Source of the DNA: Cloacibacillus evryensis DSM 19522
GTDB taxonomy: Bacteria; Synergistota; Synergistia; Synergistales; Synergistaceae
Direction: 5' to 3'
DNA: 64,000 nt
Assembly: GCF_000585335.1 (NCBI RefSeq)
Contig: NZ_KK073872.1
Location: 1,012,501-1,076,500 of the forward strand
Program-made: the position numbers and the translations under genes
Notes under the pieces: model-generated
What the model saw: the letters and a program-made list of their open reading frames with translations, nothing else
Told to the model about the DNA's origin: nothing
Databases searched by the model: none
Shown here: positions 3,151 to 63,233 of the stretch, in pieces
Numbering within the stretch: the first letter of the stretch is position 1
Layout: each line of letters opens with the position of its first letter

Positions 3151-3279
3151 GATTTTGACAGAACTTTGCCCCAGAAGCCGCAAAGCGCTGGTCGGGCTCG
3201 CGTCGACGCACTAGAGTGCGTCTTAACTCGCCCTCCTTACGCGCTTCACGTCTTCTGGAACAAATCTCTGCCAAAATCA
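3151..3279 (+). repeat. Long imperfect inverted repeat in the 23S-5S spacer
   Basis: The arms 3151-3178 and 3252-3279 are near-perfect reverse complements over about 27 bases with a few mismatches, and a second short hairpin (GACGCACT / AGTGCGTC) sits between them near 3204-3221. The likely role is folding and processing of the spacer between 23S and 5S. It could also be the remains of a small inserted element. Confidence 0.55.
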
Positions 3280-3311
3280 CAAAAGTTAGAGGGTCTACAG
3301 TCCAAAGCGTG

Positions 3312-3320
3312 TGATATAAT
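3312..3320 (+). promoter_or_regulatory. Possible extended -10 promoter ahead of 5S
   Basis: The bases TGATATAAT are a perfect extended -10 box about 56 bp before the 5S gene. There is no convincing -35 box at the right distance, which extended -10 promoters can do without. It could give 5S-only transcripts. It could also be chance in an AT-rich spacer. Confidence 0.35.
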
Positions 3321-3375
3321 ATCTCGCGTGGAAAATGACAAAGCAGATGAACGCGCAAGCGTTTATTCATAAAGT

Positions 3376-3492
3376 TTCCGGTGATTATGGAGAGAGGGTC
3401 CCACCCAGTTCCATGCCGAACCTGGCAGTTAAGCCTCTCATCGCCGATGGTACTACGGAGGGTATCCGTGGGAGAGTAGGTCGTTGCCGGAA
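3376..3492 (+). rRNA. rrf: 5S ribosomal RNA
   Basis: A 117-nt RNA whose ends pair (TTCCGG with CCGGAA). It contains the conserved loop sequence CCATGCCGAAC and the 3' domain GGGAGAGTAGG typical of 5S rRNA. It sits about 245 bp after the 23S end and just before a terminator, in the normal rrn order. Confidence 0.95.
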
Positions 3493-3503
3493 TTAATTGA
3501 GAA

Positions 3504-3541
3504 AAGAGAGTTGAGACTTTTAGTCTTGGCTCTCTTTTTTT
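3504..3541 (+). terminator. Intrinsic terminator of the rRNA operon
   Basis: An AGAGAG... stem pairs with ...CTCTCT through about 13 pairs (some G-U) around a TTTTA loop and is followed by a run of T. It ends the rRNA operon. The following ~160 bp up to the next gene hold no feature I can call. Confidence 0.9.
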
Positions 3542-3700
3542 GTCTTCGCGCGCAGGAGCTGCTGGCTCTCTGCCGCCTGGTGCCGCATACAGCGGCGGCC
3601 TGCGTTAACGGTACGTTACCGGCCATAAATCGTCATTAATGCTTAGGGCGATTGTATGTAGTTATGATATACATACTTAGCTCGTTTTCTGGTTTTATAT

Positions 3701-5923
3701 ATGGGAGGGCGATATAACAATTTATGGATGGTGATCGAGATAAAGGCTTCGGTTTTTGCAGGCAAAAGGTATCCTTCTTATCGCATGTTCGCGTTTATTG
3801 TCACACTGTCTATCTTTTTTCTTGATCCAAGCGTGGTTTGGGGGTTCCCCGCGTTGGATGAGCTTGAGGGCAAAGCCGGCGACGGTCCAGAGGTGCTGGC
3901 GGCCATATCGGCGATGCGGCGCGACGCGCTTACCGAGGAACTTGAATTACAGAGGGAGGGCGTCCGTTATTTTTTCAACGCCTCCTATGGCTATAATGAC
4001 GAACCGCAGTATGTCGGCAGTTCCACCAATATAAGCTATGAAAAGATCACAGTGGGAACGGGGCTTAGTTTTCCGCTTTTCGGTACGTGGAACAGGCTCA
4101 GGATAAACAGGCTCAACGCGGAGATAACGGCGATAGATTCCAAATACCGACCGCAAATGCTCGCGCTTCACAATTTGACGGCGCTGCGGAAGGCATACGC
4201 GGTCTTATGGATAGAATCTCAGAAGATAAAACTGGCAAAGCAGTTTCTCCGTTCCCGTGAGGATGTGACGAGGTATCTTGACGAGAGAAGGGACGCGTTT
4301 CTTCTTTTGGAGGCGGATAATCTTGAATTCCGTGCCGCTTATGATATGGCGAAACGTGACATAGCCGTCTCAAATCTGAGGAGGGTGCAGGCGCTTCAGG
4401 TGATCCGTCTGGCTACCGGCGTTATGTGGCCGATGCCGGAGGAGCCTCCCTTCCCGACGCTGCCGGTGTTTGAGGGTGCGAATGCCGACGTCGCCGCAAA
4501 TCCGGCTTCTCTGATGAGGAGGGAGGGGCTGGAAAAGTACGCCGAACTTGTCGATGTCACGAAACGGGTAGACCGAGATAGCGCGCTGGTGCTTGGAATA
4601 ACCGGAAGTAAAGAGGAACCCGGCGATTATGGCAGCGGAGTGTATCTTGGATTCAATATTTCCGAGCCGCTTAAAACGGCCGTTTCCCGCGAGGACAAGG
4701 CAAACCTCGCGGCGCGCGCCGACTATGAGCGCGCGGAGCGCGAGGAACACTTTGCCCGTATGAAGCTGGAGGGCGAGGCGGAAGAGGCTCTCTCTTACGC
4801 GGCATACGCTGCGGCGAATATCGAGGCACAGCTTTCCCGGCTGAGGGCGATATCGGAAAATGTTCGTGAGAAGCTGCTGCGTCACGCCTCAATCGCCGGC
4901 GATACCTTTGAGCAGCTGCAGAGCGGCCGTTATCAATATTATCGGGTGGCGATGGATGTGCTTGACTCGTACCTTCTTTTTATGGAAAGCGGCGCGGATA
5001 TACTCTGTTACGCCTATCCGCGCGGCCGGGAGAGCGAGCCCTCCGACCGTACTTCCGTTGCCTCCGCGGAGGCGATAGGGAAGATGCTGTCGCCTCAGTG
5101 GTTTTCGGGAGCCTTCGCCGTTCCGGCTGCGGCAACGGGGCTGAACGGCGGCGTATCTGGCAGGCCGGAAAGCGTCTATATATGGGAGGCGGCTCCGTTT
5201 CTCCGCCCTGATTCGCGGCGTCTCATGCTGAACAGGCTGCGGGAGCGCGGCATCACAAAGGTGCTGATATCATTCACGGGCAAAGAGCTAAGCAGCTTTC
5301 AGGGCGGGGAGGCGCGAAATAATTTAAAAACCCTTCTTGCGGAGGGGGAGGCCATGGGGGTATCTTTTGAGCTGCTTCTGGGCGAGCCTACCTGGCTTTT
5401 TCCGGGGAACAGGGGCAAGCTGATTTCTATAATAAGGTCTATGTCCGCTTTCCCATTTGGCGGCATACACCTCGACATAGAGCCCGATTCCCTGCCGGGG
5501 GCGGCGAATATGCGCCCGAAGCTGCTTTCTCTGCTCATCGACACGATAAAGGAGTCATGCGCGGCGGCCCGCGCGCCGGTCTCTGTCTCAATACATCCGA
5601 GGTATCTTGAGGGAAAGCTGGGGGAGATTGTTGCCAAAAGGCTGCCGCCTGCCTGCATCGGCTATATAGCGCCGATGATATATTCCACGAACGCCGATAA
5701 GACGGCGTCAAGAATGTCACGCATCCTCACCGGTCATCCGCAATTTAATTTTGTGCTGGCGCAGAGCGTGGAGCGATCACTGCCAGATAATGAAAGCTAT
5801 GCCTCCGCGGGGACCGGCGTTTTTTTAACCTCGATGGGCGAGCTGGGGAAAAAACTTTCTTTATACGGCAACTACCGGGGGATCGTCGTGCAGGATTGGA
5901 AAGATTATGAGGTGATGCGCTGA
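3701..5923 (+). CDS. TolC-like outer-membrane protein fused to GH18-like barrel
   Basis: Predicted exported protein of 740 residues. Residues about 30-48 are hydrophobic and look like a signal peptide. Residues about 55-430 are alpha-helical, charged and repetitive, as in TolC/OEP outer-membrane efflux proteins. Residues about 490-740 resemble a TIM-barrel glycoside hydrolase: a GGIHLDIEPD segment near residue 590 recalls the DxE motif of GH18, and YIAPMIY recalls its later strand motif. The start is uncertain: neither ATG 3701 nor ATG 3728 has a well-placed ribosome site, and 3785 is also possible. It is the first gene of a cluster with an HlyD-like protein, a degenerate-GGDEF regulator and a GT2 synthase, so the inferred job is export of a polysaccharide across the outer membrane plus its trimming. 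The GH assignment is by motif only. Confidence 0.75.
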   Translation: MGGRYNNLWMVIEIKASVFAGKRYPSYRMFAFIVTLSIFFLDPSVVWGFPALDELEGKAGDGPEVLAAISAMRRDALTEELELQREGVRYFFNASYGYNDEPQYVGSSTNISYEKITVGTGLSFPLFGTWNRLRINRLNAEITAIDSKYRPQMLALHNLTALRKAYAVLWIESQKIKLAKQFLRSREDVTRYLDERRDAFLLLEADNLEFRAAYDMAKRDIAVSNLRRVQALQVIRLATGVMWPMPEEPPFPTLPVFEGANADVAANPASLMRREGLEKYAELVDVTKRVDRDSALVLGITGSKEEPGDYGSGVYLGFNISEPLKTAVSREDKANLAARADYERAEREEHFARMKLEGEAEEALSYAAYAAANIEAQLSRLRAISENVREKLLRHASIAGDTFEQLQSGRYQYYRVAMDVLDSYLLFMESGADILCYAYPRGRESEPSDRTSVASAEAIGKMLSPQWFSGAFAVPAAATGLNGGVSGRPESVYIWEAAPFLRPDSRRLMLNRLRERGITKVLISFTGKELSSFQGGEARNNLKTLLAEGEAMGVSFELLLGEPTWLFPGNRGKLISIIRSMSAFPFGGIHLDIEPDSLPGAANMRPKLLSLLIDTIKESCAAARAPVSVSIHPRYLEGKLGEIVAKRLPPACIGYIAPMIYSTNADKTASRMSRILTGHPQFNFVLAQSVERSLPDNESYASAGTGVFLTSMGELGKKLSLYGNYRGIVVQDWKDYEVMR

Positions 5924-6954
5924 TGAGGATATCGTTCGGCAAGATGGGCGATCCGGAGAGTAAGGACGGAATGAAGATAAATTACGCCCCGGCAAAGAGG
6001 AAGGTTTCAAAGGTAACGTGGTGGCTGATATTGGCCGCGGTGTTCACTCCGTTTCTGTGGCTGCTTGTTTCACTGGGAGCGAACTGGCTCTTTGTATCCT
6101 CTTCGGGTGTTGTGGCAATGGATTCCTATCCGGTGAGCGTCGTCGGAGGCGGAGTCGTGACGAAAATATATGTAAAGCCGGGTGAGTTTGTGCGCGCGGG
6201 CAGCCGCCTTGCGGAGGTAAAGAGAAATATTCCCGAGGCGGAGGCGGCGGAGCGGCAGCGCGTGGAGGCCGAACTTGAGGCGCTTGGCCGCGCCGGCGGT
6301 ACCGCGGTTTCAAACCGTCCGTCAAGCTATCAGGACGGCATGATGGCCCATCTCGCGAATGAGGAACGCGTTATGAAGGAACTGATGGAAAAAGGAGCCG
6401 CCACCCGCGCCGAATATAATCAGGCGAAGGAGCGCCGGCTCGCCTCTCAGAGAGATATCGAGGCGCTGAAAAATCCGCCGGCACTGCCTGACGCCGGTGT
6501 CGAGACCAGAAAAATGTATCTGAAAAGGTATGCCGATATGCTTGCGGAGAAACAGAGCACGCCGCTTACGATCTACGCCCCGCGCGCGGGAAGGGTAGAG
6601 TACATATCGGTTACGCCGGGCTATGACACGGCGGGCGAACATGAGCTGATGCGGATAGCCGACCCCGGCGAGCCGTATGTTATCGCCTATGTACTTCCGG
6701 AAAACTATGACGATCGGGTACGGCCGGGAAGGGTCGTTGAGGTGCGTCTCCCCGGCAGCGGCAGGACGATAGAGGCCGTGGTATCCGAGCCTCCGCTGAA
6801 TGCCAACAGCGTGCCCGGGGGTCTCTCCGACACGATACTTTCAGGGAGGCGCGGCATTGTCGTTTTTCTGAAACCGAACGAGCGTCTCCTGCCGGAGGAG
6901 AGCGTCAACGGGATGCCGGTCCGCGTCGACTGGGGAATCAGGTTCTTTCGTTAG
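5923..6954 (+). CDS. HlyD/Alg44-like membrane-fusion protein
   Basis: Periplasmic adaptor of 343 residues anchored by one N-terminal membrane helix (about residues 32-55). After the helix comes a half-lipoyl segment (VVTKIYVKPGEFVRAGSRL), a short helical hairpin (about 95-175) and a second lipoyl/barrel part with IYAPRAGRVEYISVTPG. This order is that of HlyD-type adaptors and of Alg44-like proteins of polysaccharide synthases. Its ATG overlaps the stop of the TolC-like gene (ATGA), so the two are translationally coupled and probably physically joined in the envelope. Expected partners are the outer-membrane protein before it and the glycosyltransferase at 9762. Confidence 0.82.
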   Translation: MRISFGKMGDPESKDGMKINYAPAKRKVSKVTWWLILAAVFTPFLWLLVSLGANWLFVSSSGVVAMDSYPVSVVGGGVVTKIYVKPGEFVRAGSRLAEVKRNIPEAEAAERQRVEAELEALGRAGGTAVSNRPSSYQDGMMAHLANEERVMKELMEKGAATRAEYNQAKERRLASQRDIEALKNPPALPDAGVETRKMYLKRYADMLAEKQSTPLTIYAPRAGRVEYISVTPGYDTAGEHELMRIADPGEPYVIAYVLPENYDDRVRPGRVVEVRLPGSGRTIEAVVSEPPLNANSVPGGLSDTILSGRRGIVVFLKPNERLLPEESVNGMPVRVDWGIRFFR

Positions 6955-7437
6955 GAGTGAATTTCAAATATGAAAAAATATCCGGTTTTGAGGCTGCTGA
7001 ACGGAGGCAACGCTCCCGGCGACGGGGCGGCCCATGATTACGGTTCCGTACGCGAGTTGCTTGCCGCGGAGCATAGCCCCGCTATAATCATCATCGATTC
7101 GTCCCGGTATTTGCCGGGAGAGGGAAGAGCGTACTACGAAGATATCCTGAACCTTCGCCAGAGCCCGGTCTTTTGCTATGCTCCAATTTTTTCACACGTT
7201 CGGTATGCGGTCTTGACATTCTGGCTGACGGCGTTTCTGACGATATCGGCGCCATCGAGAGGGAAGGCGGTGCCATACTCGCTCGCGGAGAGAGGGTAAA
7301 GGCATCCTCCCTGGCCGGAAGCTACAAGCTGCGGATGCTCAGTTACATGTATGCGAGGGGCAGCGGCTACGAGCTGACCCCTTACTGTGTTCCCGGCTCG
7401 AAATGGATATATGGATATCCCGCCGCCGCTGTGATCA

Positions 7438-8734
7438 CAGGGCAAACGCATCAACATTCTGAGATTAACTTGATCATATAATCATTATCCCATCCAGCCT
7501 TAAGGCGTTTTCCCCTAAGGCTGGTTTTGCCGGATTTGTCTTGTTTCAGTAAATTAATTGCACAATGCCTGATGATTGCCATATTTGCGGCACTGTTTTT
7601 TTGTCTGTTGCGCATCGCGTCTTCATTGAATATCACATCAAGAACCCAATGGAGACTGTTTTCGATACCCCAGTGTGAACGTACTGACCGTCCTATTTCT
7701 GCCGCGTCAGCCGGCAGACTGCTTATGTAGTATCTTCGTTCCACAGAACTCTGAGTGCCGGATTCTCTTGTGGATTCCACCATGATTATGCTCTTGAGCC
7801 CCTTCCATTTATCAAATTCCGCAATGTCTATTTTCTCATTGTTTTCTATTGCAGCGACGTTCCTTTTTTCTATACGACCGTGGCTTTTTTCAATCGTCGC
7901 ATATGATGTGTGAGTTACTCCGGCGTAATCTGTTTTCTCTTCGCATTTGAAAAGATGTTCCGCCATTTCCAGCGTGCCGCCCTGATTGCCTTTCAAGGCC
8001 AGCAGGTAATTCCCTTTCATAGAGACGATCTTATCTGCTATTGCTTTCTGGCATCCCATGGCGTCTATTGTTATAGTGCAGTTTTTGATATCAAGCATAT
8101 CCAGAAGGGTCGGAATTGCTGTAATTTCGTTTGACTTAGCTTCCGTTGCTGTTTGGGCTAAAACAATTCCATTATCTGAGGACCACGCACTTACCATATG
8201 CAGGCAATCGCGGTGCTCTGTATTTTTGAAGGACCTTCTGGATGTCTTGCCGTCGATGGCAATGACGCCTTTTAAACGTTCGGACAATGACCTGGCCCAG
8301 TTCGCAAAACACTCCGAAAACTGCTTCGGGTCCAAGGCTGACATTACCCTGTTCATTGTGTCGTGGGAAGGGATTCCATTTGGTAAATCAAGAAACGATT
8401 CAAAGAAATCCTGTTTGCACTTTGCAAAAAGTTCAATGTCGTTAAAGCCTTCCGCACCGCAGATGACCCCGCACAGCACAATAGTAAGAATGTCGGTCAG
8501 GTTGTGCCTGATGTGGTTCTCCGCACGATTGTCAGTGAGAATAGCGAAATGTTGGCTGATGCTTGTTTGCATGTTCATTAAAACACTCCATAAATTATTT
8601 ATTGTAGTTTAGCATATTAATGATTTATTTGATTAGGGATAATACATTTTCATATGATACGTTTCGGTTTATGGTTGCTGGTGATATCGTTTTTTTGTAC
8701 AAAGTTTTTGACCTTTATTGATGCGTTTGCCCTG
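7438..8734 (-). mobile_element. ISAs1-family insertion sequence, copy 1
   Basis: A complete 1297-bp element. The ends are 17-bp perfect inverted repeats beginning CAGGGCAAACGC (7438-7454 and 8718-8734). It is flanked by a perfect 10-bp target duplication GCTGTGATCA at 7428-7437 and 8735-8744. It carries one transposase gene on the minus strand. The intact ends, intact gene and exact duplication mean a recent insertion that has not been rearranged. Confidence 0.96.
7451..8578 (-). CDS. ISAs1-family transposase
   Basis: DDE transposase of 375 residues, full length for the family. The catalytic segments are visible: AIDGKTSRRS (first D), TIDAMGCQ (second D) and HWGIENSLHWVLDVIF(N)ED (E region). 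The N-terminal part (LTDILTIVLCGVICGAEGF) is the DDE_Tnp_1-associated domain typical of ISAs1/H-repeat elements. It appears intact and able to move the element. It is only about 34-37% alike by eye to the second ISAs1-type transposase at 55965, so the two elements are different members of the family. Confidence 0.95.
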   Translation of the reverse strand: MNMQTSISQHFAILTDNRAENHIRHNLTDILTIVLCGVICGAEGFNDIELFAKCKQDFFESFLDLPNGIPSHDTMNRVMSALDPKQFSECFANWARSLSERLKGVIAIDGKTSRRSFKNTEHRDCLHMVSAWSSDNGIVLAQTATEAKSNEITAIPTLLDMLDIKNCTITIDAMGCQKAIADKIVSMKGNYLLALKGNQGGTLEMAEHLFKCEEKTDYAGVTHTSYATIEKSHGRIEKRNVAAIENNEKIDIAEFDKWKGLKSIIMVESTRESGTQSSVERRYYISSLPADAAEIGRSVRSHWGIENSLHWVLDVIFNEDAMRNRQKNSAANMAIIRHCAINLLKQDKSGKTSLRGKRLKAGWDNDYMIKLISEC

Positions 8735-9761
8735 GCTGTGATCATGGAACGCGAGCCGCAAACCGACGAAACATGTTATGATTGCCGCGACATCCGCTCA
8801 TACAATCGTTTCGTCTTTGACGACAAGGAGATGGCGGCAGCGACGAAATGGATAAGAAACTTGCAGCGGCGAGGTTATACCGAGCATACGGCCATATATG
8901 ACCGCATAAGGCTCTGCCCGAAATGCCAGACCGGGCATCTCAATTATGTCGATGTCTGCCCGAACTGCGGCAGTCTTAATATCGCCAAGAAGCGGATGCT
9001 GCATTGCTTCACCTGCGGCAATGTAGCTCCCGAGTCCGATTTCAGGCGTGATTTCTCGCTTGTTTGCCCTCGCTGCGATACAAAACTTCGTCATATCGGC
9101 AGCGACTACGATCATCCGCTCGAATCTTACCAGTGCGAGGATTGCGGCTCGTCGTTTGTCGAAGCGGACGTAAAGGTATCATGCCTCAATTGCGGGTCGC
9201 AGTCGCTTCCCGGCGAACTCACGATAAATAATTTCTATGGATACAGGCTCGGCGAACGTGGGGAAGAGGCGGTGCGCACCGGCATCATATCCGAAGATTT
9301 CACGCTCTTCGGAGGGACCAACGTCGTGAGCATACAGACATTCTGCAGCGTTGTCAAATGGCTTTCAAGTTTTCGCGGGCGCTATCCCGACGCCGGGTTC
9401 TCCCTGCTGCGGGTAAAACTTATCGGCCTTTCGGAGGCGGAAGACGTGATCGGGGCAGCCGAACTTAGAAAGCTGATAGCTGAGCTTGACACAAGGATAA
9501 GGGCCTCCGTGCGCGAGACGGATATCACGACGCTTGACGAAGACGGAACGTTCTGGCTGATATTGCCGCGCACGTCGCTTGATGGGGGAACGGCCCTCGC
9601 GAAGAGGCTGGAGGAAATGTCGTCCCTCTTTGGCGAACAGGCAGCCGGCAAGCTGAGGCTGTCCGCGAAATGTTTCATGGTATCCGACGCCGTCGCCAAG
9701 GTGCCGCCTCAAGAGCTGCTTAAAAAACTCGCGAAAGAGGATTAAGGAAGGCCGCCTTTAA

Positions 9762-11093
9762 ATGTACGAGTACCTTCTGGCGTTTCTGAAGCCCATAATC
9801 GAGCCGTTTATGAGCGGCGACGCCTGGCCGCTCATAATGCGCTTCATGCCCTTTATCATCTTCTATGAGCTGCCATACGCTCTGCTCATATACGCGGGCG
9901 TGATGAAATATATCTGGGAACGCGGCGGAGAGGGGCCCAGGCGCCCCTATTTTCCTCCGGTATCATGCGTTATAACCTGCTACAGCGAAGGGCGCGGCGT
10001 GCAGGGGACCATCCGTTCCCTTACCGAGCAGGTATATCCCGGAAGAATACAGATGATAGCGATGATCGACGGAGCGGCGCGGAATAAGGATACCTATGAA
10101 TCGGCCCTTGAGATGAGGGGCTATGTGCGGAGTTTTGCGGCGAGAAGCCTGGAAGTCGTTCCGAAATGGCAGAGGGGAGGAAGGGTGTCAAACATCAACA
10201 CCGGCCTTAATTATGTAAACGGGGAGATACTGTTCATCCTGGACGGAGATACCTCATTTGATAACGACATGGTCGAACGCGCCGTGCGTCATTTTGAAGA
10301 TCCGTCCGTAGCCGCCGTATCCGGCTGCCTGCGCGTCCGCAACGCCGACAGCTCGCTTGTCGCTTCACTGCAGGCGGTGGAATACTTCATTTCGATACAG
10401 ACGGCAAAGACCGGGCTCAGCGAATTCAACCTCGTCAATAACGTCTCCGGGGCTTTCGGTATATTCCGGCGTTCGGTCGTCGAGCTGGTGCGCGGGTGGG
10501 ACGCCGGTACCGCGGAAGATCTCGACATGACGCTGCGCATAAAGCAATACTTCGGCCGCTACGGCGGAAAGTTCAGGATAGTCTTCGACCCCGAGGCTAT
10601 GGGCCATACCGACGTGCCCGACACCCTGCTTGGGTACTTCAGGCAAAGGATAAGATGGGACGGCGACCTGCCCTTCATCTATTTCAAAAAACACTGGCGC
10701 GCATTCAGCGCGCGCCTTCTCGGCTGGCCGAACTTTATCATGGCTGTCCTTAACGGGCTCTATTCCCAGATAGTCCTGCCCTTCATCATCTTCACGTATA
10801 CCCTCTGGCTCTTCTGGGAATATCCGCTCAGCTATGTACTGAGCCTTCTCTTTGTCGTATATCTTTTCTACTTCCTGCTGCTCACTGCGATGTACGTGAC
10901 CTCGCTCATCTTCATTTCCGAACGGAAAAAAGATGATCTGTCGAGGCTTCCCCTGCTGCCGCTGTTTCCGCTCTTCATCTTTTCGTCACGCATCAACAGC
11001 CTCGTCGCCACGATATATGAGCTTGTATTTAAATCGCATAAAGATTCGTCGATGGCTCCCTGGTGGGTGACGAGAAAAAGCAAGTTTGATTAA
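9762..11093 (+). CDS. Processive family 2 glycosyltransferase (polysaccharide synthase)
   Basis: Inner-membrane protein of 443 residues. There is a membrane segment near residues 22-45, then a GT-A catalytic domain with a nucleotide-binding start (VSCVITCYSEG), the metal-binding LDGDTSF motif, a TAEDLDM base region and QRIRWDGD, the Q(Q/R)xRW-type acceptor motif of processive synthases such as BcsA, PgaC and HasA. Three to four C-terminal helices follow (about 325-425). No PilZ domain is present, so c-di-GMP control, if any, must come from another protein such as the broken regulator upstream. An AAGGAAGG ribosome site lies about 10 bases before ATG. The polymer cannot be told from sequence. 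Confidence 0.88.
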   Translation: MYEYLLAFLKPIIEPFMSGDAWPLIMRFMPFIIFYELPYALLIYAGVMKYIWERGGEGPRRPYFPPVSCVITCYSEGRGVQGTIRSLTEQVYPGRIQMIAMIDGAARNKDTYESALEMRGYVRSFAARSLEVVPKWQRGGRVSNINTGLNYVNGEILFILDGDTSFDNDMVERAVRHFEDPSVAAVSGCLRVRNADSSLVASLQAVEYFISIQTAKTGLSEFNLVNNVSGAFGIFRRSVVELVRGWDAGTAEDLDMTLRIKQYFGRYGGKFRIVFDPEAMGHTDVPDTLLGYFRQRIRWDGDLPFIYFKKHWRAFSARLLGWPNFIMAVLNGLYSQIVLPFIIFTYTLWLFWEYPLSYVLSLLFVVYLFYFLLLTAMYVTSLIFISERKKDDLSRLPLLPLFPLFIFSSRINSLVATIYELVFKSHKDSSMAPWWVTRKSKFD

Positions 11094-11123
11094 AAAATCC
11101 TTACATTGCCGAAGGACCGGCTG

Positions 11124-11150
11124 TTTTTTCCACGCGGCGGCGTGAAAAAA
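11124..11150. terminator. Bidirectional terminator between convergent genes
   Basis: T6 + CACGC stem, GGCG loop, GCGTG + A6. The A/T flanks make it usable from either side, ending the glycosyltransferase transcript (+) and the XRE gene (-). Confidence 0.7.
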
Positions 11151-11160
11151 TAACTTTCCG

Positions 11161-11553
11161 TTATATTCTGTCTTTCATAAAATCCGAAAGCTTCTTCAAA
11201 TCGCGGACATACGATAGCACCTTTATCTTTTCTTCCATCGGCAGTTCAGCGACGACCGCGAAAATCTCCCGCGTTATGCCGTTTGCCGCGGCGATCTCAC
11301 CGTTGTCGCCCGTGTATTTGAGGAATGGGCATTCTATCTGGTTTTCTTTTTCTGCGTCTTTTTTATCATCTTCACCCATCAGCGAAACTAAAGAGACCTC
11401 CAGCGCGGCGGCAATCTTCTCTAACGTTTTTAAAGACGGACGTTTTTTCCCGTTTTCGATCTCGGATATGTAACTTACGGAGAGATCCACCTTTTCAGCG
11501 AGGTTTTCCTGCGTCAATCTCCGGGCTATCCGATACTTCTGAATTTTCCACAT
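11161..11553 (-). CDS. XRE/Cro-CI family transcription regulator
   Basis: DNA-binding protein of 130 residues. Residues 1-60 form a Cro/CI helix-turn-helix (RRLTQENLAEKVDLSVSYIS, then IENGKKRPSLKTLEKIAAAL). The C-terminal half has no catalytic motif and is probably for dimerisation. It is divergent from the small membrane protein and surface-protein genes, and the shared upstream region has two TTAGCGAA repeats, so it probably controls itself and them. Confidence 0.88.
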   Translation of the reverse strand: MWKIQKYRIARRLTQENLAEKVDLSVSYISEIENGKKRPSLKTLEKIAAALEVSLVSLMGEDDKKDAEKENQIECPFLKYTGDNGEIAAANGITREIFAVVAELPMEEKIKVLSYVRDLKKLSDFMKDRI

Positions 11554-11633
11554 TAGACGAGCCCCTTTCTCTTACCAATTTACTTAGAAAAGAGCTAAAT
11601 TACTATCAGTTATAATCGAAATAAATTTAACTA

Positions 11634-11685
11634 TTAGCGAAAATATTAGAATGTAATTGACTTTTAGCGAATATGCATCTACTAT
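11634..11685 (+). promoter_or_regulatory. Promoter with two candidate XRE operators
   Basis: A -35 box TTGACT (11657-11662), 17-bp spacer and -10 box TACTAT (11680-11685) read toward the small protein and surface-protein genes. TTAGCGAA occurs inside this spacer (11664) and again exactly 30 bp upstream (11634), about three helical turns apart. A bound dimer would cover the promoter. The regulator itself is transcribed the other way from the same region. Confidence 0.6.
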
Positions 11686-11894
11686 AAATCAAAATAAAAT
11701 AGATGTAATCCATAAAAGACGAAGGCACATCGACATAATTTTTTGATACAGAGGCATTGTCGTCTCAATCAGTAAAGGCTTTTTGTATTTTGTGTCCGCA
11801 ATATATAAAAAATAACGGCTCGCAGCGTGGGGGGCACATTATAAAACGGAACAAACCGGCTGTAAGCACGCCATACCTGGAGGTGACAGATACT

Positions 11895-12002
11895 GTGAAA
11901 CAGAGAGTATTATACGCTACGTTTTTTATTTCGCTCTCCATATCAGTTGCCCTGTTGTTTTTCCTTGTCAGGAGCATGAGCGAACTGTGGCTGACGTGGT
12001 GA
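11895..12002 (+). CDS. Probable 35-residue single-span membrane protein
   Basis: A short frame starting at GTG 11895 with an ideal ribosome site GGAGGT ten bases upstream. The product has a short positive N-terminus (KQR), one hydrophobic helix (about residues 5-26) and an aromatic tail ending in tryptophans. No family is recognised. It lies between the XRE regulator's promoter and the surface-protein gene, in the same direction as the latter. A longer reading from TTG 11757 has no ribosome site and is not preferred. Confidence 0.5.
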   Translation: MKQRVLYATFFISLSISVALLFFLVRSMSELWLTW

Positions 12003-12123
12003 ACGAAGTACCGCGATCATAATACTATCTCAACAAAGGGGGGAAAGATAAAAGAATATTCTTGATTACGCGAACTTCATAACTGTGGATGAGGGGCAAC
12101 AGCGGAACGAAGAAAGGAGAAGG

Positions 12124-14412
12124 ATGATAGTGGGTAAACTGAGAAAGTACGGAATAATTTTTCTTGTGTTGTTGATGGTGCTGGCCGCCGCGCCGATGGC
12201 GATGGCGGCAACAGCGACAGAAATCGGTCAGGTTAATATTGGAGAGCTGTTTAATGAGGCGGGGGATTACATCCTGTCCGAAGATATCGTTTTGAGCGGC
12301 GACACGAAGGCAATAGAGCTTTCTAAGGATATAGAGGTCACGTTGGACCTGAATGGACATACTATATCCGCTGATACAAGCAAATACAGAGAACTTGAAA
12401 GTAATGCATTGAAGTATCCTGGAAGTATCATTTACGCGACATCAGGAGACATTACTATCAAAGATGGCGTTGGCGGAGGGAAAATATGTGATACCAGCGC
12501 GGCAGAATATAGTAAACATAACGATGGCGTGATACGCGTCGAAAAAGGAACTCATCTGACCATCGAAAAAGCGATAATAGAGGTCAAAGAAGGTATTGGG
12601 ATCACAACCTATGATGACGGTACCAGAGTGACGTTTAAAGACGGCGAAATAAAAGTCGAATATGGCTTCGGTATAGGCACGAATGGGCTAAATATTACCG
12701 AACCTGGTTCCGGCATTTACGTGGAGGGCGGAACGATTACTGTAGCTAGCGCCGATTCTGCGGCAATTTATCACCCTAGCAGCGGAACTTTAAGTATATC
12801 TGGCGGCACGCTGTCGGCTGCGGACGGCATTCAGGTAAAAGCGGGAAGAGTGATAATTACAGGCGGAACCATCACGGCAACGGGGAAACATAATGTCCCG
12901 CTAGACAGTAAGTTCTCAGGCGGCGGAACAAACGAACTTGGCAATGCACTGTCCTTGATATCCCATGCGAGTTATAAAGGCCAGTCCATGGATGTTGCGA
13001 TCTCCGGTTCGGCGATGCTGATAGCTGAACAGGATGACGCTATTGGTGTTTATGTGAACAGCGGAGACGTGAGCCACGTAAATTCGTTTGTAATTACCGG
13101 CGGCACCTACAGCAGCGACCCGTCCGCCTATGTCGAGTCTCCTTATGTAGTCAAGCAGGTCGAAGGTAAATATGTCGTCGCCCTCGCCAGCGTCGCCGTC
13201 ACTCCGACAGCCGCCGAACTCGTACTCGGCCTTACGCCGACGGCAAAGTTGACGGCATCCAGCGACATCGAAGAGGCTTTTACATGGGCATCTAAGAACA
13301 ACGACGTCGTGACTGTCGACAGCTCCGGCAACATCACCGCCGTCGGCGCGGGCACTGCGGACGTAACAGCGACCGGCGATTCCAGCAAATCTGTCGGTAC
13401 ATGTGTGGTCACAGTGCGCGCAGCGACTCCCGTAAGCGTGACTCCGTCCAAGATGGAACTTAACATCGGCGCGACCGGCAAGGCGACCGCCAAGTATGAC
13501 GCGAAAGACAGCATAACTTGGGAAAGCAGCGACACAGCCGTCGCCACCGTCAAGGACGGCACGGTAACTGCCGTTAAAGCCGGCATCGCCGTCATCACCG
13601 CCAATGGGTCAAAAACCTCGGCCGCCTGCACGGTGACCGTCACCGACCCGGCGGCGCCCGATCCCGTCACGCCTACGCCGGCCCCCGTCGACGCGGGGAC
13701 TGTAGATAAAGAAAACAACCCCGTCAATAAAGAAGAAGGCAAACCGGAGAACGTAGAGGCGGCGACGCCGGCCATTACGGAAGCTACCGAGGAAGGTAAA
13801 GCCGCCGTAGTTAGCGCGACAAAGATCGAGGAAAAGAACCTCGTCGCCACCGCCGACGGCAAACTCACGATCAGCCCCGTGCTTGCCAAGAGCGCGCTTG
13901 AAGAAGTGATATCCGCCGACGCGACAGTCGCGCCGAAGAACGTGGTCCTGCTTCCGATCGTACAGGCTGCGGTAACGGCAAATAACGTGGCCGCCCTCGC
14001 CTTCACGATGACCGGCGAACAGTTGGGCGCTGAGGAAAACACAGTCGCGGGAGACGTCAAGGTGATCAAGGTCCTGGCAGACGGCAAGGGCGGACAGTTC
14101 AGCTATGCCTCCGCGGCGGCAGACTACGCGGACAAGACTTTCACGCTCAAAGACGCTGACGGCAAGAGCCTCGCCCTGACGGATAAGGTCGCGAAGGCTT
14201 CGACCTATACGCTGGTAGTATTCGTAGCCGACAACGGCGACTTCGACCTCGACGCGACGGCCGGCAGCGTGATCGACCCCGTGGCGGTAGCCACCAACGC
14301 GGCGACAGAGCCGAAATCCGGCGGTTCAAGCAGCGGATGCAACGGCGGCTTCGGCGCGCTGGCATTGCTTGCGCTCGCGGTGCTTCCCTTTATCCGCCGC
14401 GAAAAGAGATAG
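12124..14412 (+). CDS. Synergist-CTERM surface protein with beta-helix and Big2 repeats
   Basis: Exported protein of about 762 residues. ATG 12124 is chosen because AAAGGAG precedes it; the upstream ATG 12085 has no ribosome site. After a signal peptide (VLLMVLAAAPMAMA) comes a right-handed beta-helix-like region (about 35-340) with repeated SGGT / GGTIT turns. Two Ig-like Big2 domains follow (SVAVTPTAAELVLG... and PVSVTPSKMELNIG...), then a Pro/Ala/Thr linker, an acidic domain, and finally a C-terminal sorting signal: SSSGCNGGFG, a hydrophobic helix (ALALLALAVLPF) and RREKR. That tail is of the Synergist-CTERM type, in which the Cys region is thought to be processed for surface anchoring. 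The ligand or partner is unknown. Confidence 0.88.
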   Translation: MIVGKLRKYGIIFLVLLMVLAAAPMAMAATATEIGQVNIGELFNEAGDYILSEDIVLSGDTKAIELSKDIEVTLDLNGHTISADTSKYRELESNALKYPGSIIYATSGDITIKDGVGGGKICDTSAAEYSKHNDGVIRVEKGTHLTIEKAIIEVKEGIGITTYDDGTRVTFKDGEIKVEYGFGIGTNGLNITEPGSGIYVEGGTITVASADSAAIYHPSSGTLSISGGTLSAADGIQVKAGRVIITGGTITATGKHNVPLDSKFSGGGTNELGNALSLISHASYKGQSMDVAISGSAMLIAEQDDAIGVYVNSGDVSHVNSFVITGGTYSSDPSAYVESPYVVKQVEGKYVVALASVAVTPTAAELVLGLTPTAKLTASSDIEEAFTWASKNNDVVTVDSSGNITAVGAGTADVTATGDSSKSVGTCVVTVRAATPVSVTPSKMELNIGATGKATAKYDAKDSITWESSDTAVATVKDGTVTAVKAGIAVITANGSKTSAACTVTVTDPAAPDPVTPTPAPVDAGTVDKENNPVNKEEGKPENVEAATPAITEATEEGKAAVVSATKIEEKNLVATADGKLTISPVLAKSALEEVISADATVAPKNVVLLPIVQAAVTANNVAALAFTMTGEQLGAEENTVAGDVKVIKVLADGKGGQFSYASAAADYADKTFTLKDADGKSLALTDKVAKASTYTLVVFVADNGDFDLDATAGSVIDPVAVATNAATEPKSGGSSSGCNGGFGALALLALAVLPFIRREKR

Positions 14413-59022: not shown

Positions 59023-59769
59023 CTAATTTTCCACGGACGCCAGGCGCTTCCTCATTGAATCCCCTGCAATGAGCATGCTTTCAGAGTTATGGATAATGCG
59101 GTCCAATAGGCTTTCAGAAATAAGCCCGTTGCCTAAGGCTGCCATCCATTCCGACACATCAATTTGCGTGCAAAAAATAGTGGACTTGTGCATGGTATAG
59201 CGATACTCAAACAATTCAAAAATGTCTGTGATGTTGTTTGAAGACATGCGGTTTAGCAGCCATTCGTCCAGTATCAGCAGCGAAACTTTACTAAGCCGCT
59301 GTATCGTTTTGCTAAAAGAGCCGTCTTCTCTGGCAAGCGCTAGCTCGTCCAGCAGGTTAGGCATTCTGATATACTTGCAGGTGTATCTGTTGCGGCAGGC
59401 AGCAGTGCCCAGAGCACAGGCAAGATATGTTTTTCCAACGCCGGTTGCGCCCATGATTATGATGTTCCGGCCGTGGAGCAGATAACCGCATTCCACAAGC
59501 TCATTGATCTTTCGTTTCTCTAATCCACGATCTTCAGAATAGTCGATCTCAAGCGCAGAAGCGCTCGGATAGCAAAAAGAAGCTTCTCTGATATGAACGC
59601 AGGCCGTATTGTCCTTTCTGCGATGCCACTCCCGATCTATAAGCACTTCGATCTGCTGGTCAAATGTCAGCTCTGTGAAACCTTTACTTTCACTCCTCTC
59701 ACGTATGTCAGCCGCCAAAGAAGTAAGATGCATATCGCGCAGCTGATTGAGTGTGATCTGGCTAATCAT
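59023..59769 (-). CDS. istB: IS21-family ATPase IstB (outer element)
   Basis: AAA+ ATPase helper of 248 residues with Walker A GATGVGKTYLACALG, Walker B LLILDEW and the IstB-typical ending region STIFCTQIDVSEWMAALG...LLDRIIH. Its start overlaps the IstA stop by eight bases, as is standard for the family. It assembles on target DNA and stimulates IstA. About two-thirds alike by eye to the inner element's IstB. Confidence 0.92.
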   Translation of the reverse strand: MISQITLNQLRDMHLTSLAADIRERSESKGFTELTFDQQIEVLIDREWHRRKDNTACVHIREASFCYPSASALEIDYSEDRGLEKRKINELVECGYLLHGRNIIIMGATGVGKTYLACALGTAACRNRYTCKYIRMPNLLDELALAREDGSFSKTIQRLSKVSLLILDEWLLNRMSSNNITDIFELFEYRYTMHKSTIFCTQIDVSEWMAALGNGLISESLLDRIIHNSESMLIAGDSMRKRLASVEN

Positions 59770-60833
59770 TGTTTCTGCCTCCGTAATAAGCAGATCCGCG
59801 CCTGAATCCTATTACAGAAGAATTATCATCATTCTCGGCAAACCGGATGTTTATATCCTCCTGCAATGTGTTTCTGCTGCTCAACGCAAGTTTTATTGAC
59901 TTCAAGCTGGGTGTGGACTGAAGCTCAAGTATGCGTGCACATGCCTTTTCAAGCGCCGCCGCGCCGTATTTTTTATCCAAAGAAAGCAGCCCTGCGCAGA
60001 ATCTATCCCCTATGACACGGCTTCCATTCTTTTTGAGTATCTTATCAATGACGGTAAGCGTAGAGGGGCCGTGTTCTGTTCCCCAAGCAAGGTACTTATC
60101 CGCATCCCATTCCAGCATTCTGCGATGCGCCTCCGGCATGTGTGACTGGTCGGTAACATAACTCCCTTTTACTTCAGAACGAGGATGAGCAGCTATGCGC
60201 TCGCCATGAAAAAAACATTCGATAAGGTTGCTAGCTGTCCTTATCTGTACTTTTTTTGAGGCATAAGAGCATGGCACACTGTAATATGTTCCATCTATAT
60301 TGACGTGATAACTGTAAGGTACGGTCTGCTCTTTATAGTGCGCGATGACGAATTCATGCTCGGGAAGCGCTGTCATCATACTCCTTTCTTCAGTCTCATA
60401 AACGGACTTTCTCGAGCTTTCTTTCTTTTGGAACGGCTTGTTGTTGAATCCTTCGAGGCGTTCCCTGACTGCATTGTTGAGCTCGTTCAGAGAATAAAAT
60501 TCCTTATCTCTGAGCGCCGCTATGATATGGGTTGTAAGGAGCCCTACTGTGCATTCCACAGAAGACTTGTCTCTGGGTTTAAGCACTCTGGCCGGCGATA
60601 CAAAACAACCGTAGTATTCAGCAAGCTCACGGTACGACTGATTGATCTCCGGCTCATACCTGTCTGGCTTTTTTACTCCGGTTTTAAGATTGTCAGGACG
60701 CAGCAGGCGCGTGGTTCCCTGAAAGTAGCGGAACGCATTGATATGCGCATTTTGCCACGAATCCTGTTTCTGATCATTGGTTGCTTCAGCGTAGCAATAA
60801 CCTGAAAAGGGCAGGTGGATATTACGCTCCAAA
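59762..60833 (-). pseudogene. istA: IS21-family transposase IstA, C-terminal part (outer element)
   Basis: The segment contains LPFSGYCYAEATNDQ, the second catalytic D in RPDNLKTGV and the E in SSVECTVGLL, followed by the Mu-like C-terminal barrel and tail ending GSAYYGGRNND. The HTH and first catalytic D are missing here; a matching N-terminal part lies at 63336-63896 beyond the inner element. The overlap region (SLERNIHLPFSG against the expected NLFVACLPFSG) does not rebuild the gene, so bases were lost or the two parts come from different copies. Confidence 0.8.
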
Positions 60834-60919
60834 GAGCCCACCATTCCGCAGGTCATGAAATTCTGTTCCGTAGCAAACGAGCCCACCGTAACGACGGCGA
60901 GCCCATTCATTGAGATGCG

Positions 60920-61690
60920 TTATTTCATTTCGACCGTACTGGCTTGAATAGACTTCAATCCTTTTTTCTTCCTCATTGAGTCGCCGTGAAGCACGATTTT
61001 ATACGAACAATGAATGATCCTGTCCATTAAACTTTCGGCCATCAACGAATTGCCGAGCGCAGCCAGCCATTCCGAGGTCTCTATCTGACTGCAGAATATG
61101 GTCGAGCGCTGTTCTGTGCTGCGGCACTCCATTATTTCAAAGATGTCTTCAAGTCCTCCATGGCTGATCCGGGTTATAAGCCATTCGTCCAGGATAAGGA
61201 GCCGGGGTTTTCTGTATTGCTGTATAATTTGGCGTACAGAGCCATCGGTCCTCGCCATCGCAAGCTGATCCAGCAGTTCCGGCGTTCGGGTGTAACGGCA
61301 GGAATAGCGGTTGCGGCAGGCCGCCGTTCCCAGCGCGCATGCGAGATAACTTTTCCCCACTCCGGTGGCTCCCATGATCATGATGTTGTGTCCGTTTTCA
61401 ATATAAGAACAGGCCGCAAGTTCGTTTATCTGCTTTTTTACCAGTCCGCGCTCCTGTGCATAGTCTATCTCAAGCACTGAAGCGCTGTTGTAGCAGAACT
61501 GCCCCTCCCTTATAAGGTCTGTAATGCGCTTGCTGCGCCTCCTATGCCACTCTCTGTCCACAATGACGGTTATCTGCTCGTCGAAGCTGAGTTCGCAGAA
61601 AGAAGCGTCGGCCTGTCGCTCCTTGATGTCGCCGGCGAGGAAACTGAGGTGCATATCATGCAGCTGGTTTATCGTCTGCTGGCTAATCAT
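60920..61690 (-). CDS. istB: IS21-family ATPase IstB (inner element)
   Basis: ATPase helper of about 256 residues from ATG 61690, overlapping the IstA stop by eight bases; a longer frame to 61768 only reads back through IstA. It has Walker A GATGVGKSYLACALG, LLILDEWLITRI and TIFCSQIETSEWLAALGNSLM. Confidence 0.92.
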   Translation of the reverse strand: MISQQTINQLHDMHLSFLAGDIKERQADASFCELSFDEQITVIVDREWHRRRSKRITDLIREGQFCYNSASVLEIDYAQERGLVKKQINELAACSYIENGHNIMIMGATGVGKSYLACALGTAACRNRYSCRYTRTPELLDQLAMARTDGSVRQIIQQYRKPRLLILDEWLITRISHGGLEDIFEIMECRSTEQRSTIFCSQIETSEWLAALGNSLMAESLMDRIIHCSYKIVLHGDSMRKKKGLKSIQASTVEMK

Positions 61691-63233
61691 CGCTCTTGCC
61701 TCCGTAGTAGCCTGCGCCGCGTCTGAAACCTGTAACGGAAGGCCCATCATTCTGTGTCGAATCATCATCAGCGTTTCTTTTCGCGGTAACAGCGCTGAGC
61801 GCGAGCTTCATAGATTTCAGGCTCGGGGCGGAAGAAAGGGCGAGAAGCGCCCTGCAGGCGTTCTCTATATCCTGCGCGGCATAATTTTTACTCAGCGATA
61901 CCAGCCCCATACAGAATTTGTAGCCCGGCAGGCTATGTCCGTTCCTGGTAAGTATCTTCTGTATCACGGAGAGAGTGCCGCCGCCTATCTCCGCGCCCCA
62001 TTCAAGAAACTTGTCGTTGTTCCAGGCGTAGAGCTGTCTATGCGCCTCAGGCATATGAGAACTGTCCGTGACATACCGTTCAGCTCCCCGATTGCGTATA
62101 TGACAGGCGACCCGCTCTCCGTCGCAGAATACCTCTATCATAGAAGAGGTGCTCCTTACCGTTACTTTTCTTCTGATACACTCATAGGGCACACTGTAGT
62201 ATTTCCCGCCCTCTGCCTGAATATGATAATTTGCCGGAACGACGGCATCCTTGTAATGGGCTATCTGATAACAGAATTCAGGCAGCGGACTCAGATACCG
62301 GCTCTCCTGAACGGAGAACAGGAGGCTGCGTGAGCCCTCTTTCTTTTGAAAGGGCCTGTCGTTGAATTGTCTGAATCTGAGACAGATGTCCTTGTTAAGT
62401 TCTTTTAATGAATGATAGTCAACGTTTCTGACGGCGGCTATGATATGAGTGGTGAGCATTCCGACCGTTCCCTCGACGGTGGGCTTGTCTTTTGGTTTGC
62501 GTACTTTTGCGGGAGAGACAAAAGCACCGTAGTGCTCAGCGAGTTCTCTGTAAGCGCTGTTGATTTCAGGGTCATACTTATCTGACCTGACGACCCCGGT
62601 CTTTAAGTTGTCCGGCCTGAGAATCTTAGCCGTTCCTCCGAAGAAAGCATACGCATGGATATGCGCTGTGAGCCATGAATCCAGCTTCTCGTCCGCGAAT
62701 GCCTCGGCATAGCAATAACCTGAAAATGGCAGGCAGGCTGTGAAGAGAGACGCTTTTATTTCTTTCCCGGCAACGGCATCTCGAAGCAGAATCTTTGTGC
62801 CGGCCCAGTCGACCTCCATGACCTCGGCAGGCTTATGGGCGATATGCATAGACGTGCTGTTCGCTGCCGCATATTCCTTATAATTCTTGCTGAACTGTGA
62901 ATACATATACGGGATATCGCCGCTTTCCTGACATGCCGCGCAATACTCGTTCCATAACAGAGCAAGCGTGACGCCTGATCTGGCAAGCTCCTTATGTATA
63001 TAGGCGTAATCCGGTTCTTTCTGGATACGCGGCAGTATGGCCTGCGGATAGATCATCCTTGCAAGCGAATTGTCCGAGAGCTCTTTGATCTTGTTAAAAT
63101 CCAGCTCCAGCTCTGCGGCTCTTGCAAGGATCCGCTTGACAGTGCTGTGGGCGCAGCGGCAGCTGGCGGCAATATCCCGCTGGCTCAGCCCGCCTTCGAA
63201 GTGAAGGCGAAGTATCTCTCTGTACATGGTCAT
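61683..63233 (-). CDS. istA: IS21-family transposase IstA (inner element)
   Basis: Full-length transposase of 516 residues. The N-terminal HTH has GGLSQRDIAASCRCAHSTVK; the catalytic residues are in EVMEVDWAGTK (D), RPDNLKTGV (D) and KPTVEGTVG (E); the C-terminal DNA-binding part ends RGAGYYGGKSDD. GGGAGG ribosome site before ATG. All parts needed for transposition with IstB are present. Confidence 0.94.
   Translation of the reverse strand: MTMYREILRLHFEGGLSQRDIAASCRCAHSTVKRILARAAELELDFNKIKELSDNSLARMIYPQAILPRIQKEPDYAYIHKELARSGVTLALLWNEYCAACQESGDIPYMYSQFSKNYKEYAAANSTSMHIAHKPAEVMEVDWAGTKILLRDAVAGKEIKASLFTACLPFSGYCYAEAFADEKLDSWLTAHIHAYAFFGGTAKILRPDNLKTGVVRSDKYDPEINSAYRELAEHYGAFVSPAKVRKPKDKPTVEGTVGMLTTHIIAAVRNVDYHSLKELNKDICLRFRQFNDRPFQKKEGSRSLLFSVQESRYLSPLPEFCYQIAHYKDAVVPANYHIQAEGGKYYSVPYECIRRKVTVRSTSSMIEVFCDGERVACHIRNRGAERYVTDSSHMPEAHRQLYAWNNDKFLEWGAEIGGGTLSVIQKILTRNGHSLPGYKFCMGLVSLSKNYAAQDIENACRALLALSSAPSLKSMKLALSAVTAKRNADDDSTQNDGPSVTGFRRGAGYYGGKSDD

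Follow-up and report, generated by a model that had tools for sequence, protein, structure and literature searches.

In Shewanella oneidensis, the mxdABCD operon encodes MxdA, a degenerate GGDEF protein that binds cyclic dimeric guanosine monophosphate (c-di-GMP), MxdB, a membrane glycosyltransferase of family 2 (GT2), MxdC, an efflux-pump homologue, and the hypothetical protein MxdD, and mxd mutants fail to form a three-dimensional biofilm (PMC3691769, PMC7666153, PMC3409153, PMC11395469). PelD and BcsE read c-di-GMP with a dead GGDEF domain through its RxxD motif, and BcsE is built as a REC*-GGDEF* tandem (PMC8461298, PMC7439463). In cyanobacteria (Thermosynechococcus), the unproven XcsAB-TolC model of cellulose export proposes a GT2, an HlyD protein and a TolC-like conduit, together with a glucanase (PMC12430437). 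The NGR pathway of Escherichia coli (NfrA/NfrB) was recently recognised as c-di-GMP-dependent GT2 glycan secretion (PMC8669472), an indication that pathways of this kind continue to be discovered. In this paper we looked at a cluster of four genes, A to D, in a stretch of 64,000 nucleotides from Cloacibacillus evryensis DSM 19522 (contig NZ_KK073872.1, positions 1,012,501 to 1,076,500; hereafter the window). An earlier note, made from the letters of this DNA, had read the cluster as a separate synthase-dependent polysaccharide system that is unlike any known one and uses a TolC-like pore and a tethered hydrolase; it had asked for a search for the four-gene order and a structure prediction of the first protein, and had held that the proposal would fall if the four genes were not conserved together.

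Based on our analysis, it is quite likely that the four genes encode a c-di-GMP-gated, synthase-dependent exopolysaccharide secretion machine with a TolC-HlyD conduit and a tethered periplasmic glycosidase. The linkage of the genes across phyla was directly observed. Among 188 Synergistota genomes, gene D has strong matches in 31 and in one more where it is cut by a contig end, and the TackOD1 domain of gene C is found above the Pfam cut-off in exactly the same 32 genomes. The order is A-B-C-D wherever the contig is long enough, and together with the shared set of genomes this constant order means that the association of C and D in Synergistota is not due to chance. The locus is patchy, since the sister species within Cloacibacillus is without C and D. 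When 84,980 species genomes were scanned with a gene C profile, 153 relatives were obtained; in the best 80 of these 153, which were read, nearly all have D adjoining C and most also have A and B. The order C-D-A-B is found in Pseudomonas, Stutzerimonas, Marinobacter, Vreelandella, Burkholderia, Nitrosomonas, Desulfobacterota and Planctomycetota, and a full-length C is present in about 17 (4.6%) of 369 sampled Gammaproteobacteria genomes. When the orders are mapped on the D tree (A-B-C-D in 49 loci, C-D-A-B in 44, C-D-B in 12, and a hydrolase-only form in 10), gene order tracks the tree strongly, with 12 changes versus 51 in shuffles. Minimal C-D-B clusters are carried by Plesiomonas, Photobacterium and Rhodobacteraceae plasmids or replicons. 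The search asked for in the earlier note thus recovered its gene order in Synergistota and a reordered cassette in other phyla, and the four genes proved to be conserved together. No conserved additional genes flank the cassette in Synergistota and elsewhere only an epimerase does so, in a subset of loci. A deeply divergent subfamily was also seen in Gammaproteobacteria (L180-L184), with D about 33% identical, the order A-B-C-D and a very diverged A. One copy labelled as the archaeon Methanomethylovorans (L062) nests inside Synergistaceae and was set aside as likely contamination of a metagenome-assembled genome (MAG), and the MAG copies labelled Bacillota and Synechococcus are in doubt.

Gene C has a REC-like domain followed by TackOD1 and a GGDEF-like domain. 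TackOD1 was defined in archaeal response regulators and noted in some bacteria, with no function assigned to it (PMC5847659). The window fragment, with its CxxC zinc ribbons, matches TackOD1 (PF18551) with 181.5 bits against a cut-off of 32, and among 40 C relatives that were scanned, TackOD1 was found in all 40 and GGDEF in 39. In the AlphaFold2 model (mean predicted local distance difference test score, pLDDT, 88) the N-terminal domain is an alternation of strands and helices, which we read as REC-like. The homologue on a Roseibium aggregatum plasmid (L145) is divergent and has TackOD1 fused to a genuine receiver domain next to Hpt genes, an arrangement that suggests phosphorelay control of a related synthase. 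For the C-terminal domain, both profile and structure comparison matched GGDEF structures such as PleD. The GGDEF motif is lost in every C sequence and the catalytic residues of diguanylate cyclases are substituted at the aligned positions. The I-site RxxD is kept in 109 of the 109 readable sequences, including the window (RETD). An arginine further downstream (R451 in L061), at least 90% conserved, lies 28 residues past the RxxD aspartate, a spacing which we take to be that of the second I-site arginine in PleD. By this pattern, which is that of PelD and BcsE, gene C is a predicted c-di-GMP receptor, and we infer that it binds the signal and controls D. The signal itself should be present, because the window genome has 21 GGDEF matches.

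In the window, gene C carries two lesions, both seen directly. The full gene encodes a protein of about 465-500 residues that starts at 6970, and relatives carry it as a single open frame. Here the frame shifts at a T-run near 7186-7192, and further on the gene is split by an insertion sequence (IS) of the ISAs1 family, 1,297 bp long and on the opposite strand, whose transposase was identified by an NF033564 match of 420 bits. The element ends in perfect 17-bp terminal inverted repeats and has a target duplication of 10 bp, GCTGTGATCA, and it occurs in three near-identical copies in the genome (window 7438-8734, C1:991712-993006 and C1:2037370-2038664); from these three features together it follows that the insertion is recent. 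One of these copies is located some 28 kb upstream of the cluster. A sequencing error might still account for the frameshift, but not for the insertion. The window copy of the cluster is thus not intact in its putative receptor gene: the zinc-ribbon protein with a degenerate GGDEF that the earlier note read at 8654-9745 has the domains it named, but is only the C-terminal part of gene C, with about its first 27 codons inside the IS. Since gene C is broken, the system of the window genome should be inactive or deregulated. It is indeed likely that the locus in this genome is a decaying remnant without function, as the frameshift, the insertion and the lack of C and D in the sister species would suggest. 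Against this, the reading frames of A, B and D are open throughout, the relatives are intact, and the retained part of C preserves its zinc ligands and RETD, so any decay is recent. Elsewhere in the genome, a GGDEF domain with an in-frame stop (C1:989221-989679) lies about 2 kb away from one of the other ISAs1 copies, and in this strain the decay may extend more widely among c-di-GMP genes.

Another question that is raised is whether the cluster is simply an ortholog of the Shewanella mxd operon, with mxdA as C, mxdB as D, mxdC as B and mxdD perhaps as A, so that only the spread and the TolC-hydrolase gene would be new. We lean towards this explanation. The published descriptions of MxdA, MxdB and MxdC match C, D and B, MxdD is hypothetical, and the loci of Plesiomonas and Photobacterium are exactly C-D-B. 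On the other hand, homology was judged from published descriptions alone, the cited mxd literature reports no TackOD1 for MxdA, and MxdD is described as a protein without known homology. By this comparison the cassette and mxd probably form one family. The statement of the earlier note that no known system has this gene set was too strong, since mxdABC is described with the same content and GT2-HlyD-TolC export had already been put forward in the XcsAB-TolC model. Its claim of a separate system loses its uniqueness in this way and keeps its TolC pore and tethered hydrolase, which agree with the domains, the invariant motifs and the gene linkage.

Gene A encodes a signal peptide, a TolC/OEP-like channel (residues ~50-440), a flexible linker (~470-486) and a GH18-like (beta/alpha) barrel (~490-740). 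The window protein reaches 19.7 bits against Pfam OEP, where the cut-off is 22; OEP was matched by 33 of 35 gene A relatives, several of them above the cut-off (L079 and L103 included). Its AlphaFold2 model has the two OEP repeats, the two beta-hairpins and the long helices of the TolC fold and matches CusC (Foldseek E 1.6e-14), and the barrel has weak Foldseek matches to GH18/GH84-type barrels (E about 1e-3), among them a GH18 chitinase (E 9e-4). The requested structure prediction and the OEP matches of the relatives therefore bear out the TolC-like and GH18-like fusion that had been proposed. A sequence search of the PDB with gene A gave two chance matches for the single sequence and none for the profile. 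Both ends of TolC are periplasmic, so the barrel should be located in the periplasm beside the duct. The barrel has the conserved residues H590-L-D592-x-E594, H632-x-R634, M659-x-Y661, S689-x-E691 and Q731-x-W733, which are kept in about 97-107 of 109 sequences from several phyla; at the level of sequence, this conservation speaks for an active enzyme. Several Pseudomonas have the barrel as a standalone protein with a signal peptide. The GH18-like domain stands alone, without the TolC part, at L107, L118, L128, L134-L138 and L140, with a lipobox-like signal (LLSGC) in the copy labelled as Synechococcus (L134).

Several results weigh against a conduit of this type with a tethered glycosidase. 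Pfam GH18 was matched by only 2 of the 35 members, with E about 0.07 and the cut-off never reached, and of the classic GH18 motif DxxDxDxE the barrel keeps the DxE part, together with MxY, and has H and G in place of the two earlier aspartates. Because the cut-off is unmet and these two acids are absent, the barrel may cleave another bond or may not be a hydrolase at all. The same two points would fit a domain that serves the channel in sugar binding or gating without being catalytic, a reading which seems rather unlikely given that D592/E594, H632, R634, Y661, E691 and Q731 show almost no variation across phyla, as in an active site. Moreover, a minority of loci have no A or an A that lacks the TolC part, so the core does not depend on TolC export, and neither a deacetylase nor an acyltransferase nor a TPR-type porin was observed among the genes of the cassette.

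Gene B has the HlyD domains PF13437 and PF16576 in Pfam, and no PilZ domain was found in the Pfam scan of the window protein. Of the "HlyD/Alg44-like adaptor" in the earlier note, the HlyD part can be kept and the Alg44-like part cannot, as the adaptor has no PilZ.

In gene D, the residues D103, D161xD163, E252-D253 and Q295-R296-x-R298-W299 are invariant across 22 members. Together these motifs are what marks a processive polysaccharide synthase embedded in the membrane, and the processive GT2 with Q(R)xRW that had been read here has all of them, QRxRW included. A gene D profile matched structures in the PDB that include hyaluronan, cellulose and chitin synthases. Pfam and NCBIfam both group gene D with the GT2 enzymes. 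In NCBIfam the nearest family is PgaC/IcaA (TIGR03937, 133 bits against a cut-off of 422.3), CelA (TIGR03030) gives 21 bits against a cut-off of 699, and a Pfam scan found no PilZ domain in gene D. It is very improbable that D glycosylates a lipid or a protein and that A and B are an unrelated efflux pair recruited to the operon, as might be thought from the sub-threshold scores of D against the named polysaccharide synthases of NCBIfam and from the usual role of TolC-HlyD pairs in efflux or type I secretion, because QRxRW is invariant, most of D can be aligned with hyaluronan synthase and PgaC, the four conserved genes include no RND, ABC or MFS pump, and adaptor and synthase remain linked in loci without A.

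A mechanism that fits a c-di-GMP-gated secretion machine can be suggested. D would polymerise a sugar activated with uridine diphosphate (UDP) in the cytoplasm and thread the chain through its own membrane channel. The HlyD-type B would bridge D to the outer membrane, where A, as a TolC-like trimer, would be the exit duct, so that A and B would form a continuous outward path for the polymer. The periplasmic GH18-like barrel of A may trim or clear stray chains, a role comparable to that of BcsZ, AlgL or PelA, and C would be the cytosolic c-di-GMP receptor that licenses D, as PelD, BcsE and probably Shewanella MxdA do. As a weak guess, the product could be an N-acetylhexosamine polymer, hinted at by the PgaC-like synthase and the GH18/GH84-like barrel. 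A gene for a GalE-like epimerase is located immediately after B in several Pseudomonas loci and on one Rhodobacteraceae plasmid, where it is a true GalE; because of this position in some loci, a galacto-configured sugar is likewise weakly hinted at.

The features of the locus are collected in Table 1. A, B and D are intact open reading frames (ORFs) on the forward strand, as the single direction in the earlier note required, and its start/stop coupling of the first pair was confirmed, with the ATG of B sharing one base with the TGA of A. A search of 3200-12200 for riboswitches (c-di-GMP or other known families) had no match and gave only the 5S rRNA. Directly downstream of the cluster (12085-14412) lies a gene for a Synerg-CTERM protein with Big_2 (bacterial Ig-like) domains, likely a surface protein, and at 59762-63233 on the reverse strand there are two neighbouring genes with Mu-transpos_C_2 (IS21-type) transposase domains.

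Table 1. Positions of the cluster genes and of associated features in the window.
Feature	Position	Strand	Description
5S rRNA gene	3377-3492	+	Context only; ~200 bases upstream of the cluster
Gene A	3701-5923	+	Intact ORF; TolC/OEP-like channel fused to GH18-like barrel
Gene B	5923-6954	+	Intact ORF; HlyD-type periplasmic adaptor with N-terminal hydrophobic segment
Gene C, 5' part	6970-7437	+	REC-like domain at the N-terminus, then the start of TackOD1; split over two frames (ORFs 6970-7299 and 7173-7481)
ISAs1-family insertion sequence	7438-8734	-	Transposase 7451-8578 (-); 17-bp inverted repeats; splits gene C
Gene C, 3' part	8735-9745	+	TackOD1 zinc ribbons (PF18551) and GGDEF-like domain; I-site RETD, GGDEF motif absent
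Gene D	9762-11093	+	Intact ORF; membrane-embedded processive GT2 synthase

We found no description in the literature of a TackOD1 receptor in this role, of a TolC-glycosidase fusion or of the spread of the cassette. The chances are about even that these loci represent an unnamed, multi-phylum class of c-di-GMP-controlled exopolysaccharide secretion, defined by a TackOD1/dead-GGDEF receptor, a GT2, an HlyD protein and mostly a TolC channel with a fused periplasmic glycosidase. If this is true, it would be an operon-encoded export of long polysaccharide through the TolC family, which would extend this conduit beyond proteins and small molecules and build a hydrolase into the channel, and a function would be assigned to bacterial TackOD1 for the first time. 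In the many environmental Pseudomonas, Stutzerimonas, Marinobacter, Desulfobacterota and Synergistota that bear it, the cassette may account for an overlooked polysaccharide of the biofilm matrix. The cassette would also supply defined homologues for the study of the half-understood mxd operon of Shewanella.

Of the known systems, Shewanella mxd, compared by its published description, likewise combines a degenerate-GGDEF protein, a GT2 and an efflux-type adaptor in one operon, and the C-D-B cluster of Plesiomonas has the same content in the same order as described for mxdABC. It differs in that the cassette includes the TolC-GH18 protein A, whereas none is reported for mxd and MxdD is without known homology. 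Pel (through PelD) and type II Bcs (through BcsE) resemble the cassette in the dead GGDEF with RxxD, and BcsE also in the tandem of REC-like and GGDEF-like domains seen in gene C, but they use other synthases and other outer-membrane exits, are without the zinc-ribbon TackOD1, and BcsA has a PilZ domain. In the XcsAB-TolC model, the cellulose synthase XcsA has a PilZ domain of its own, the genes are unlinked in T. vulcanus, the endoglucanase is separate and the TackOD1 receptor is absent. The NGR pathway differs in NfrB, which has its own MshEN domain, and in NfrA, a TPR beta-barrel protein where the cassette has the TolC-like A. Poly-N-acetylglucosamine (PNAG) synthesis by PgaABCD/IcaA has, in PgaC/IcaA, the nearest relative of gene D, although below the cut-off, and the cassette is without the porin PgaA, the deacetylase PgaB and PgaD.

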